Source: a bacterium
Lineage (GTDB): Bacteria; T1Sed10-126
DNA length: 7,477 bases
Direction: 5' to 3'
Assembly: GCA_003557545.1 (NCBI GenBank)
Contig: PWOD01000163.1
Location: 1 to 7,477, forward strand
Every line of letters begins with the position of its first letter. Positions within the stretch are counted from its first letter, which is position 1. The notes under the pieces were generated by a model. It was given only the letters and a program-made list of their open reading frames with translations. It had not been told where the DNA came from and did no database searches. Of the stretch, positions 1 through 4,617 are shown one piece after another. The translations under genes were made by a program, and so were the position numbers.

Positions 1-181
1 GACCGTTATCCGCTTTGACACCAAGAATAATGTACCCGCCGTTCAGGTTGGAAAAATCGTTCGCAAAGGCACAGGTGGTTTGCACCACATCGAGTGGATT
101 CCAGCCTTTTTTAAACTCCAGACGTTCCCACTCAACGGCTCGTCCGTGGAGAAGGTCTTTTAAACTGACGGGTAAATTCAT
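1..181 (-). CDS. AlbA_2 (Schlafen-type) domain protein, N-terminal fragment
   Basis: The minus strand opens with ATG at 181 and stays open for 60 codons to the window edge, so the C-terminal part is missing. The translation starts [20 protein letters not shown] and continues with LEFKKGWNP, then [20 protein letters not shown]. This is the E-x-x-x-x-E-F-K-x-x-W followed by a C-A-F-A-N-D-x-x-N-x-x-G-G-x-I-x-x-G pattern of the AlbA_2 domain (Schlafen family, PF04326). Family members usually continue into an ATP-binding or winged-helix C-terminus and are annotated as DNA-binding transcriptional regulators or RecG-like proteins. Schlafen-type proteins are sometimes linked to nucleic-acid processing and defence; the role here is unknown. 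No strong Shine-Dalgarno is seen. The upstream gene ends 45 bp away on the same strand, so co-transcription is plausible. Confidence 0.8.
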
Positions 182-1609: not shown

Positions 1610-1930
1610 TTATTCCTCCGCCTCAATTAACAACAGCCGTTTACTGAAACCACCTCTATTATCTTTTTTCTTTTTCCGAATGGTTTCAAGAAAATCGATG
1701 TCTTCACAATGCATACTAGCAAGTGCGCGGATCACTTCGAGAATGTCGGCCAGTTCTTCCGGTTTGTTTGACTCCAGGTATTCATCAACCTCTTCCTGTA
1801 ATTTTTCTTTCAGTTTTGCCTGGTATTCTTCATCGTTCAGTTCACGGATTTCATATTCTTTGCCCGCTTCCTCAATGATCTCGGGGATGCGGTCTCGAAT
1901 CAGTTTGTCATATTGAATCTTTTTACTCAT
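1610..1930 (-). CDS. MazG-like nucleoside triphosphate pyrophosphohydrolase
   Basis: This 106-residue protein belongs to the all-alpha NTP pyrophosphohydrolase superfamily, in the subgroup often labelled phosphoribosyl-ATP pyrophosphohydrolase-like (COG4997). The diagnostic N-terminus Y-D-K-L-I-R-D-R-I-P-E-I-I lies at residues 7-19. The Mg2+-binding acidic helices follow as EEVDE (46-50) and EELAD (58-62), matching the family ExxE...ExxD motif, and the usual GGFSKRLLL tail is at 93-101. Such enzymes hydrolyse NTPs or dNTPs to the monophosphate and pyrophosphate; substrate cannot be read from the sequence. ATG at 1930 follows the HNH gene's TGA by three bases, so translation is probably coupled. 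The protein appears intact and is unlikely to act in histidine synthesis, since no his genes are near. Confidence 0.85.
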   Translation of the reverse strand: MSKKIQYDKLIRDRIPEIIEEAGKEYEIRELNDEEYQAKLKEKLQEEVDEYLESNKPEELADILEVIRALASMHCEDIDFLETIRKKKKDNRGGFSKRLLLIEAEE

Positions 1931-1933
1931 AGG

Positions 1934-3121
1934 TCAGGCCACCAGCTCTTCCGGGGTGATTTTTTTCTCAACGGTTACACTGTCAAGGTTATCATAAATT
2001 CGCAAAACCAGCTCCCGGAGTTGTTCAACCTTCTCGGTCTGATTATCCGGGGCAGGTCGTTTATAAAATTTCTGGTAGGTTGCAGTCAAATCAGTTTTGA
2101 TCAACTCGTCATCCGTCGATAGACAGCGGTCCAGATGTTCAGGCAGGCGACGATAGCGAAATTCATCGGTCAGGGATAAGAGTCGGTCCGATTTCTTGCG
2201 ATTAATCGTTGGGCGCGTGGGAACGAGATTCCAGAAACGGTTAACCGGCAGCCGGGACCAGGGTAAAAAATGATCCACGTCAAAGGAAGATGGAAGGCTG
2301 TCGCCGGTGTAAAAATCGATAAAACCGTTTTCCCGGTAAAAACTTTGATATTGATTTAAAGGTTCACGTTCACCGAACCGGGTGGATAGGACACGGAAAA
2401 AAGCGCCGTGATCAAAAGATTCCTCATCACCCTGGTAAGCCAGGCACTGTTCATACCACTGGCGGGTGATGATCGAATCAATCCAGAACCGAAGTTCCTG
2501 CAGCTCTTCGTACACCCGACTGGCAATCAGAATGTGAAAATGCTCTTTCATCTCCAACTGCAGATAACTCTCCGCCCGGCTGTTGGCGATAATCTGGTTG
2601 CTCCCCTTCTGAATAATCGTATCAAACTCACCACGCACAAGCGAATGTCCATCAAGATAAGCGGTAAACAGCGGCGCCACCTCACCTCTAACGTTACGCA
2701 CATGACGCACCGGCATCTCAATCACCGTGCGCCGAATCTGCTGCAGGAGTTTCACATATGGAGTAGGAAGATCGGTTGCCGTTTCAATCCGTTCCAACAT
2801 CTTCAACACCGCTTCCGCTGTATCCAGACTAAAGCCTTCATCATCCAGAGCTGAAAACTCCGCTTCAAAGGCTTCAAAATACCCCTCAATCGCTGTACGC
2901 TCACTGCTCCCCTGCCTGATTCGACTTTTCCAGAGGGGCCAGTAATAACGTAAAAATTTCTTGGCCAGGTAAATACCGGGCACATAGTGAAACCCATTTT
3001 CAGAATCCTCGGTGGGATGTTCAATCACATAATCAATCAAAGCTTTCAGCAGGGCATACTTATACGTGGAAGATTTACTACCAAATTTAAGAATAGCTTC
3101 GATCTGTCTGGGAGATTCCAT
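1934..3121 (-). CDS. HNH endonuclease domain protein (zinc-less type)
   Basis: This 395-residue protein has an all-helical N-terminal region that starts with the phrase GSKSSTYKYALLKALIDYV (14-32), which I recognise from a family of HNH proteins, and a C-terminal HNH domain at about 268-315. Key residues are D283-H284 (in FDVDHFLPWS), N298 (in FWNLVPT) and N307 (in INRKKSD). These correspond to the general-base histidine, the central asparagine and the last metal ligand position of the beta-beta-alpha-metal fold. The four structural zinc cysteines of common HNH proteins are absent (D269, T272, R303, I306), which fits a known cysteine-free variant. The likely activity is metal-dependent cleavage of DNA or RNA; the target is unknown. 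No clear Shine-Dalgarno precedes ATG 3121. The gene is followed three bases later by the MazG-like gene and preceded by the ArsR gene and its repeats. Confidence 0.85.
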   Translation of the reverse strand: MESPRQIEAILKFGSKSSTYKYALLKALIDYVIEHPTEDSENGFHYVPGIYLAKKFLRYYWPLWKSRIRQGSSERTAIEGYFEAFEAEFSALDDEGFSLDTAEAVLKMLERIETATDLPTPYVKLLQQIRRTVIEMPVRHVRNVRGEVAPLFTAYLDGHSLVRGEFDTIIQKGSNQIIANSRAESYLQLEMKEHFHILIASRVYEELQELRFWIDSIITRQWYEQCLAYQGDEESFDHGAFFRVLSTRFGEREPLNQYQSFYRENGFIDFYTGDSLPSSFDVDHFLPWSRLPVNRFWNLVPTRPTINRKKSDRLLSLTDEFRYRRLPEHLDRCLSTDDELIKTDLTATYQKFYKRPAPDNQTEKVEQLRELVLRIYDNLDSVTVEKKITPEELVA

Positions 3122-3255
3122 AATACGGAAAGTCTACAGGCAAAACAGCTTAAATTCAAGCCAACCAAAAACACCACCCTCCACCCCCAACAGGTTCAAA
3201 CCTCTCGAAAACATCTCCATGCTCTCCCGATGGCACTTGCTAATAAAAAAATTCA

Positions 3256-3287
3256 ATCACTTGAAGGTTTGTTCAATTGTTCAAACG
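3256..3287. promoter_or_regulatory. Operator-like site, copy 1 (left repeat)
   Basis: The sequence has ATCACTTGAAGG followed by TTTG, then two tandem 8-bp units TTGTTCAA TTGTTCAA (sharing the TTG) and ACG. The inner part CAATTG plus TTCAAACG matches the right half of the 32-bp palindrome at 3706-3737. It lies 135-166 bp upstream of the HNH start. Binding by the ArsR protein is inferred from sequence identity of the half-site. Confidence 0.5.
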
Positions 3288-3374
3288 TATTAAAACCGCA
3301 TCTATGACCCTCTAAACAGCTCCATATTCCAAAACCGCGCTGATCACTTGAAGGTTTGTTCAATTGTTCAAACG
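3274..3374. repeat. Direct repeat, left copy flanking the ArsR gene
   Basis: The unit begins CAATTGTTCAAACGT, continues with a diverged 18-base block ending ATCTATG (13 of 18 positions match the right copy), then about 34 diverged bases, and ends with GATCACTTGAAGG plus the operator-like half-site. The same order occurs in the right copy at 3719-3807, in the same orientation. The two copies bracket the regulator gene. Confidence 0.65.
3342..3374. promoter_or_regulatory. Operator-like site, copy 2 (left repeat)
   Basis: This site is near-identical to copy 1 over 32 bp (GATCACTTGAAGG, the tandem TTGTTCAA units, then ACG). It ends six bases beyond the 3' end of the ArsR gene, in the gap toward the HNH gene. 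The offset from copy 1 is 87 bp. Confidence 0.5.
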
Positions 3375-3379
3375 CGACC

Positions 3380-3664
3380 TTACATCTGGCGGCGGACTAC
3401 TTCTCGTAATTCCATTACATGCTCGATTATTTCCCGACGTTTTGTAAAATATCTGACGTAAGGTCCTTCCGTTTCAAACCGGGCCAGGTCAGCGTCACGC
3501 AAAGTTTTAAGATGATGCGAAACAGAGGATTCGCTTCGCCTGAGTTTTCGACGCAATTCCTGCACAGTCATTGGTTTTTCTAATAGGAACATTAAAATCT
3601 GAAAGCGAATCCCATTGGCAAGCGCCTTCAAAACCTTAATCAGCCGGTAGTCTTTCTCATCCAT
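3380..3664 (-). CDS. ArsR-family winged-helix transcriptional regulator
   Basis: This 94-residue protein has the typical ArsR/SmtB length and layout: LKALANGIRFQILMFLLEK (12-30), a helix-turn-helix at about 33-56 (MTVQELRRKL, then SESSVSHHLKTLRDADL), and a beta wing at 61-74 ending in PYVRYF. It should bind palindromic DNA as a dimer and repress transcription. There is no cysteine anywhere and no ELCVCDL-type metal site, and the C-terminal helix has a single histidine, so metal sensing of the ArsR/CadC kind is unlikely; the inducer is unknown. The start ATG at 3664 has an AAGGGGG ribosome site about 8 bp upstream. A palindrome overlaps its own promoter, implying autoregulation. The downstream gene on the same strand is the HNH nuclease, 258 bp away. 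Confidence 0.9.
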   Translation of the reverse strand: MDEKDYRLIKVLKALANGIRFQILMFLLEKPMTVQELRRKLRRSESSVSHHLKTLRDADLARFETEGPYVRYFTKRREIIEHVMELREVVRRQM

Positions 3665-3692
3665 TTAAAACACCCCCTTTCTATTGCAAACC

Positions 3693-3721
3693 ATTATACC
3701 TCCCCCAAGACGTTTGAACAA
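3693..3721 (-). promoter_or_regulatory. Promoter of the ArsR gene
   Basis: On the minus strand, TTGTTC (plus 3716-3721) is followed by exactly 17 bases and a perfect TATAAT (3693-3698), 28 bases before the ATG. The -35 box lies inside the 32-bp palindrome, so a bound repressor would block RNA polymerase. Confidence 0.7.
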
Positions 3722-3737
3722 TTGTTCAAACGTCTTG
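3706..3737. promoter_or_regulatory. 32-bp perfect palindromic operator
   Basis: The sequence is a perfect 32-bp palindrome with arm CAAGACGTTTGAACAA meeting its reverse complement at the centre. The core TTTGAACAATTGTTCAAA closely resembles SmtB/ArsR-type operators (TGAACA...TGTTCA). It overlaps the ArsR promoter -35, which points to it as the self-repression site. The palindrome is read directly; binding is inferred. Confidence 0.75.
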
Positions 3738-3807
3738 AAGGCGTATCTATGCTCTCTTTGAGGGGCTTGTTCGGAAAATAATGATCACTTGAAGGTTTGT
3801 TCAAACG
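3719..3807. repeat. Direct repeat, right copy flanking the ArsR gene
   Basis: This has the same order as the left copy: CAATTGTTCAAACGT, a block ending ATCTATG, about 30 diverged bases, then GATCACTTGAAGG and the terminal site. The terminal site has only one TTGTTCAA unit where the left copies have two, so this copy is shorter (75 bp between equivalent CAAACG positions, against 87 bp). Confidence 0.65.
3783..3807. promoter_or_regulatory. Operator-like site, short copy (right repeat)
   Basis: GATCACTTGAAGG is followed by TTTGTTCAAACG. It is identical to copies 1 and 2 except that one 8-bp TTGTTCAA unit is missing. It lies between the ArsR promoter and the end of the broken PIN gene. Confidence 0.45.
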
Positions 3808-3831
3808 TGTTGAGATGAAGGAGTGTGAGGG

Positions 3832-4252
3832 TTATTCTGGGAGTTTTTTTAGATGGAGTTTGGTGCTGCGAGTAGCACGGGATTGGCGATGGGCGACTGT
3901 CAAGAAATAATCGGCATTCCAGGCCAGGGCGGAAGCAATATGTAGGGAATCAAGAGCACACAATTTATTTTTTTCGAGTAAATCGATGCTGGTCTCTATT
4001 ACTTCTGGCCAAAGCTCACAGATAAACATATCCTTTGTCTCTTGAAAAAATTGTGTTTTGATTTTTTTATATTCCACAGCAAAATTTTTTTGGTTGCGTT
4101 TAAGACGGTTTAGAGCAGAAATCATTTCAGGCAAGCAGATAACCACTTATTGCAAGTTGCGAGGCCTGCCGGCAGTGTTCTGCTACCTGCTGACTGCCGG
4201 GTTCCACAATGTAACGTTTTGCAAGTGCGGATGGGTCACAAAAAAGTTTCAA
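3832..4252 (-). pseudogene. PIN-domain (VapC-type) toxin, frameshifted
   Basis: Two frames together make one PIN protein. The first starts at TTG 4252 (KLFCDPSALAKRYIVEPGS), overlaps the antitoxin stop in TTGA, and runs to a stop at 4127-4129. The second starts about 4146 (VICLPEMISALNRLKRN) and ends at 3832 with LCALDSLHIASALAWNADYF. Removing one G of the GG pair at 4143-4144 joins them as ...LAISVICLPEM..., about 139 residues, a normal size. PIN toxins are Mg2+-dependent ribonucleases that use four acidic residues. D6, the E of PEM and the D of ALDSLH are present, but the usual TAD motif reads T-V-A, so the fourth acid is replaced. The toxin is therefore probably inactive. A single-base sequencing error could explain the frameshift but not the missing acid. 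Confidence 0.75.
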
Positions 4253-4476
4253 CGCGCTTCGGAACGTTCTTTGATTATCTCTTCACTAAGCGATCCGGAT
4301 TCCAGGGGGAGACGAACCCCCGGCTGTTTCCAGGCAAGATCTTCATCTTGTCCGGGGGGGATCAGTTTTGCGACAGGCCGACCATAACGGGTTATATTTA
4401 TTTTTTCCCCCTTCTCGACCTGATCAAGGTATTTACTGGCGTTTTGTCTGAATTCTGTAAATGAAGCAATTTTCAT
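4249..4476 (-). CDS. Phd/YefM-family antitoxin
   Basis: This 75-residue protein starts MKIASFTEFRQNASKYLDQV and continues with EKGEKINITRYGRPVAKLIPP, the classic Phd/YefM N-terminal DNA-binding fold. The C-terminal third (LAWKQPG...SLSEEIIKERSEAR) is the expected toxin-binding tail. I chose ATG 4476 rather than the longer frame starting at 4512 because GGAGG sits 5 bp upstream of it and the family begins here. It should neutralise the adjacent PIN toxin and repress their shared promoter. The antitoxin is intact while the toxin is broken, the usual order of decay for such modules. Confidence 0.88.
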   Translation of the reverse strand: MKIASFTEFRQNASKYLDQVEKGEKINITRYGRPVAKLIPPGQDEDLAWKQPGVRLPLESGSLSEEIIKERSEAR

Positions 4477-4617
4477 AATATCCTCCTTTCTGTACAAATA
4501 AGTGTCCAACAATTGAGTAAAAAAAGCAATTTTTCAAAATCGCTGTACCATGTCAAATTACTGTCGATTAATTTTTCGAAGTAAGCTTGGTCATTTCCGC
4601 CAACAAAGTTACAGCCA

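Follow-up and report, generated by a model that had tools for sequence, protein, structure and literature searches.

Matched operator-like sites on both sides of a cysteine-free arsR gene and its paralogs suggest a recurring layout

The closest described counterparts of the locus presented here are the operator-promoters of the SmtB/ArsR family of winged-helix dimers (smtO/P with sites S1/S2 and S3/S4, ziaR, czrA, and arsR), whose proteins recognize 12-2-12 inverted-repeat operators that sometimes lie over the −35 box (PMC8790569, PMC6555750); among the operators in Table 2 of PMC8790569 is AATACCTGAACA-GA-TGTTCAAGTATT. In the 7,477-nucleotide stretch of bacterial DNA that was analyzed (the window), an arsR gene resembles these systems in its 12-2-12 palindrome with a TGAA-N6-TTCA core, in the placement of the operator over the promoter, and in having two upstream sites, as some of them do. 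It differs from them in having matched sites immediately past the gene as well, where no promoter is recognizable, and in that its product lacks the classical metal ligands. A second likeness is to the non-metal-sensing ArsR regulators of the HlyU/NolR type, as HlyU and NolR are among the closest structures and the window protein is free of cysteine. HlyU/NolR-type regulators are not known to have their genes bracketed by their own sites, and no instance was found in the open-access literature.

The arsR gene and its flanking repeat units

Assignment of the window protein to the ArsR family rests on matches to Pfam HTH_5 (PF01022; 47.1 bits against a cut-off of 22) and NCBIfam NF033788 (64.5 bits against a cut-off of 55). 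Its closest relatives in the PDB are HlyU, SmtB, CzrA, and NolR, and its recognition helix, SESSVSHHL, aligned with SESAVSHQL of SmtB. The α5 metal ligands of SmtB are D104 and H106; in an ungapped alignment to SmtB residues 37 to 108, these positions are occupied by R76 and E78. Because the protein has no cysteine (α3N) and no α5 Asp/His, metal sensing through the known sites appears unlikely from the residues present. A reading of the protein as Csa3, raised by PADLOC matches, was rejected, as these most likely reflect the common winged helix only.

Past arsR on the same strand lie a gene for a stand-alone HNH protein, with weak similarity to Cas9-type HNH domains, and an open reading frame for a MazG-like protein that begins 3 nt past the HNH gene (Table 1); the two are probably one operon. 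HNH is a possible target of ArsR. Elsewhere in the window, the minus strand at 3832-4512 carries a Phd-type antitoxin (4249-4476) followed by what by eye resembles the C terminus of a PIN toxin (3832-4146), in an open reading frame without a normal N terminus; this is possibly a decayed toxin-antitoxin pair. A Schlafen/AlbA_2 domain fragment occupies the window edge (2-181, minus strand).

The initial annotation had described arsR as flanked by two repeats, each a pair of operator-like sites in the same order, and every block that it quoted was recovered as described. Specifically, CAATTGTTCAAACGT occurs at 3274-3288 and 3719-3733, and GATCACTTGAAGG at 3342-3354 and 3783-3795, with TTTGTTCAA directly after each. 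The left unit reaches back to 3254, earlier than the annotated 3274, and opens with a third CACTTGAAGGTTTGTTCAA, which ends at 3276; its other end lies approximately 6 nt from the arsR stop codon. Of the two motif copies in the right unit, the first is a perfect palindrome and the second is shortened. The four TTGAA-N6-TTCAA sites of the window compare with none in 381 of 400 Markov-simulated windows and one in 19 of the 400, and the longest word common to the left and right units is 23 nt, against 12 nt or fewer in 200 simulations. The repeats are therefore genuine and far above chance.

Table 1. Features of the arsR locus, in window coordinates
Feature	Position	Strand	Description
Small MazG-like protein	1610..1930	minus	judged by eye; no family above cut-off
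HNH protein, stand-alone	1934..3121	minus	HNH_4, 33.2 bits (cut-off 22); next co-directional gene past arsR
Left (downstream) unit	3254..3374		two TTGAAGGTTTGTTCAATTGTTCAAACG copies, 87 bp apart (87-nt internal period)
Site, left unit, distal	3261..3276		TTGAA-N6-TTCAA
Conserved block, left unit	3300..3306		ATCTATG
Site, left unit, beside arsR stop	3348..3363		TTGAA-N6-TTCAA
arsR	3380..3664	minus	94-aa winged-helix repressor, ArsR/SmtB family, zero cysteines
−10 element of arsR promoter	3693..3698	minus	TATAAT (perfect); 17-bp spacer
Right (upstream) unit	3706..3812 (end approximate)		two operator-like sites ~75 bp apart
Perfect 32-bp palindrome (15-2-15)	3706..3737		CAAGACGTTTGAACAATTGTTCAAACGTCTTG; predicted primary operator
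Site, right unit, within palindrome	3714..3729		TTGAA-N6-TTCAA
−35 element of arsR promoter	3716..3721	minus	TTGTTC; within palindrome
Conserved block, right unit	3745..3751		ATCTATG
Second site, right unit	3789..3804		TTGAAGGTTTGTTCAA; TTGAA-N6-TTCAA

Spacing between sites ranges from 75 to 93 bp, and their helical phase is not constant. An Rfam search gave zero matches, and a simple scan detected no terminators. The RNA of the left unit folds no better than shuffles, and that of the right unit folds well, as its palindrome predicts. A CRISPR- or integron-like reading was discarded: there are just two to three repeats, the spacers are partly conserved, and no cas or integrase gene was seen.

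The arsR promoter and matched sites in paralogs

Within the upstream palindrome, GACGTTTGAACA-AT-TGTTCAAACGTC fits the 12-2-12 form of SmtB/ArsR operators, so that a TGAA-N6-TTCA operator of this type lies at the gene's own promoter. Because the palindrome overlaps the −35 box beside a perfect TATAAT, ArsR very likely represses its own promoter, and the earlier proposal that the right unit controls arsR is well supported, as a prediction, by this SmtB/ArsR-type palindrome on the −35 box. The same geometry is found in all three paralogs of one clade in the window genome, where CAATTG, at the center of the upstream palindrome, contributes the TTG of a −35 element exactly 17 bp from a −10 element: TTGTTC-17-TATAAT in the window, TTGTGA-17-TATACT on contig C26, and TTGTCA-17-TATTAT on contig C109. 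The three −10 boxes match the consensus at 5 or 6 of 6 positions. The chance of this geometry is approximately 0.01 per fixed place, for a test devised after the pattern was seen. No −10 element in the upstream geometry was present in the downstream copies or in antisense readings, where matches reached 3 of 6 at most. A plus-strand promoter common to three units (TTCAAA-17-TATGAY or TATGCT) is weak, with 8 to 9 of 12 matches.

Six genes of the window genome match HTH_5, and three of these arsR genes form a clade with two from a sister genome, G001 (support, 98/83). For each arsR gene, the 260 nt upstream was compared with the 260 nt downstream. Against a shuffle mean of approximately 8 nt, the longest words common to both flanks were 23 nt for the window gene (contig C120), 17 nt for C26, 13 nt for C109, where the match amounts to just these 13 exact nucleotides, and 22 nt for the sister-genome gene on G001:C45. 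The fifth clade member, G001:C109, has no recognizable upstream copy and carries a downstream array only. In this array, six TTTTGTCCATGGACGAAA-type palindromes spaced 40 to 41 nt apart follow directly after arsR (L135, ~2465-2690).

Bracketing also occurs outside the clade, in relatives that belong to other families: three loci of genome G106, with common words of 46 nt (C118), 24 nt (C71), and 23 nt (C39), and G105:C34, with 27 nt, which encodes a four-cysteine ArsR. Weaker cases, at 13 to 14 nt, are G050:C23 (an A/T-rich word, p 0.04) and G032:C342 (14 nt), and the remaining ArsR loci tested showed no bracketing. Among control open reading frames, 13 nt was reached by 2 of 271, in a set that is mixed because both of these come from viral contigs, and 15 nt by none. 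When all upstream flanks were compared with all downstream flanks, the long matches fell on the diagonal, and off-diagonal values were 7 to 12 nt, with one of 15 nt. Each bracketed paralog has a different palindrome, which matches its own partner only. On contig C66 of G106, a fourth paralog is present as a divergent ArsR gene with CCCGTATGTTCGTATATACGAACATACGAACATAG on both sides (L239, 1200-1610).

The clade thus retains matched sites both upstream and downstream of the gene while the palindrome itself differs between paralogs, which argues that the downstream site probably has a function and changes in step with the protein. Operators are usually pictured as one or two upstream sites, a picture from which such a site departs, and the protein-palindrome pairs offer ready-made material for working out how ArsR recognition helices read DNA. 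No earlier description of operator-bracketed arsR genes was found in the open-access literature, outside which most subscription journals lie; these data suggest that the layout is a recurring and apparently undescribed design.

Role of the downstream unit

Taken as a whole, the locus is read here, with reasonable though far from full confidence, as that of an ArsR that represses itself and has a co-evolving second anchor downstream of its gene. A dimeric ArsR without classical metal ligands would bind four palindromic sites, two upstream and two downstream of its own gene, and at the upstream palindrome over the −35 box it would repress its own promoter. The co-variation of the two flanks suggests that the downstream sites are bound by the same protein; their most likely role would then be that of a second anchor for autorepression, either through a bridge or loop that spans the ~300-bp gene or through a roadblock placed at the gene's 3′ end. 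Bridging is itself a guess, as SmtB/ArsR proteins normally work as individual dimers and do not loop DNA. The reading also has against it that the spacing of the sites is not helically constant, that G001:C109 lacks a recognizable upstream copy, and that the C109 match is short.

A different assignment of the sites, which we regard as possible but doubtful, assigns the right unit to arsR and the left unit to HNH-MazG as their operators and makes a unit on contig C97 (see below) a third target, with the bracketing following from gene order. It would fit the position of HNH as the next co-directional gene, the possible promoter TTTAGA-16-TTTAAT that lies inside the left unit between its two sites, and the arrangement at G105:C34, where the second site is directly before a co-directional gene that by eye is arsM-like. 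However, the −35/−10 geometry of the upstream copies is absent downstream, a convergent gene comes next at G001:C45, G106:C39, and G106:C71, and over 130 nt separate the end of the left unit from the HNH start. In addition, the sister genome has an HNH orthologue, present as an N terminus (64% identity) at a contig end, and the available sequence upstream of it contains neither the unit nor an arsR gene. The initial annotation was right in position that the left unit faces the HNH gene; given the gap, the lack of an upstream-type promoter, and the convergent genes that paralogs' sites often face, the unit is not simply the HNH operator. More generally, as the downstream copies lack the promoter geometry and several neighbors are convergent, it seems unlikely that a downstream site serves the next gene as its operator and nothing more, and a second anchor for autorepression remains our preferred role for it.

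Dispersed copies and the question of mobility

The window genome (2.15 Mb, 239 contigs) contains 16 TTGAA-N6-TTCAA sites, compared with 3 for a reversed control. Seven of the 16 fall in two loci, 4 in the window and 3 within 190 bp on contig C97, and the others are scattered singles with different centers. This concentration at two loci is not the genome-wide occurrence unlinked to the regulator that the initial annotation had considered contrary to its proposal. In the sister genome, the count does not rise above background (6 sites, and 5 in the reversed control). TGTACAATTGTACA-like palindromes are seen in this genome ~130 to 170 nt before the HNH gene (L161, near 3447-3487).

The unit at positions 484-698 of C97 is genuinely homologous, with 76% identity over 114 nt, the 87-nt period kept, and the ATCTATG block reading AGCTATG. 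No arsR gene is present in this 8.9-kb contig. The contig end is 484 nt from the unit, so a target beyond it is possible; the left end of C97 showed no overlap with other contigs for joining. A search for the unit with and without its gene, as had been proposed, returned one gene-free copy and, in the window genome, no second copy of the cassette with arsR. The C97 unit is either one more target of ArsR or a repeat copy that stands alone. Although a unit lacking arsR in this contig would suit unrelated intergenic repeats with arsR between them by accident, we consider this highly improbable, given the concentration of sites at two loci, the palindrome on the arsR −35 box, and the own-partner matching in several paralogs.

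Matches to the repeat in other genomes (85k scanned) were set aside, as they consisted of three exact 19-mers in unrelated bacteria, at about chance level. The 19-mer did not occur in viral contigs, where 16-mer matches, also dismissed, showed short similarity around the seed only.

The copies in G106, a genome unrelated to the window genome, raise the question of whether such units move. A search of G106 with one of its cassettes found copies at several unrelated places (L216-L229), whose neighborhoods differ. Full copies are at C71, C118 (98%), and C39 (83%); a copy at C84 has an internal deletion that joins query positions 1-217 to 365-483; the copies at C77 and C146 are truncated by contig ends; and short palindromes stand alone at C71:7983, C23, C2, C30, C113, C29, and C118:17332. 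In the window genome, the two-site unit recurs without arsR at C97, and the C26 palindrome recurs with one mismatch at C2:298, C31:12177, C95:3694, and C160:12117 (L171, L172, L173, and L174), in intergenic positions not obviously at promoters. These patterns would be expected if palindrome-arsR-palindrome were a small element, self-copying or moved in trans, that leaves solo palindromes and deletion derivatives and includes autoregulation. A palindrome-bracketed gene whose palindromes also occur alone, and the G106 deletion derivative, likewise recall REP/RAYT elements, MITEs, and mobile insertion cassettes.

Unlike those elements, neither the cassette nor the window holds a transposase (Y1 transposase was absent among the Pfam matches of the searched window and C97 open reading frames), and no target-site duplication was recognized at the G106 boundaries, which are blurred. 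In contrast to REP/RAYT and MITEs, the only gene in the unit encodes a predicted repressor, whose operators the palindromes resemble. Moreover, the C120 cassette has no second copy with its gene, and the solo copies could be regulatory targets; multiple whole-unit copies at unrelated sites were found in G106 only. We therefore judge a mobile element to be an unlikely account of the locus. The suggestion that the cassette moves draws on analogy with G106, and the window genome offers for it a single gene-free recurrence. Together, the G106 copies and the dispersed C26 palindromes indicate by analogy that units of this kind can multiply, whatever the mechanism. It is a speculative and rather improbable extension that arsR genes bracketed by operators amount to selfish elements of a minimal kind, in which a self-repressing protein has its own palindromic sites as ends, spread in distant bacteria as cassettes, deletion derivatives, and solo palindromes, with a matched pair per lineage.

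Several near-copies of the C26 palindrome are part of longer CCCAT...ATGGGTTTTT hairpins. Near the C97 unit, positions 1800-3641 (L009) encode a 613-aa protein of unusual length with a match to the DNA polymerase III beta-clamp C-terminal domain in its middle, and the minus strand at 834-1315 holds an HTH fragment and a short open reading frame that by eye resemble the broken C terminus of a gene related to the Schlafen/AlbA_2 fragment of the window.
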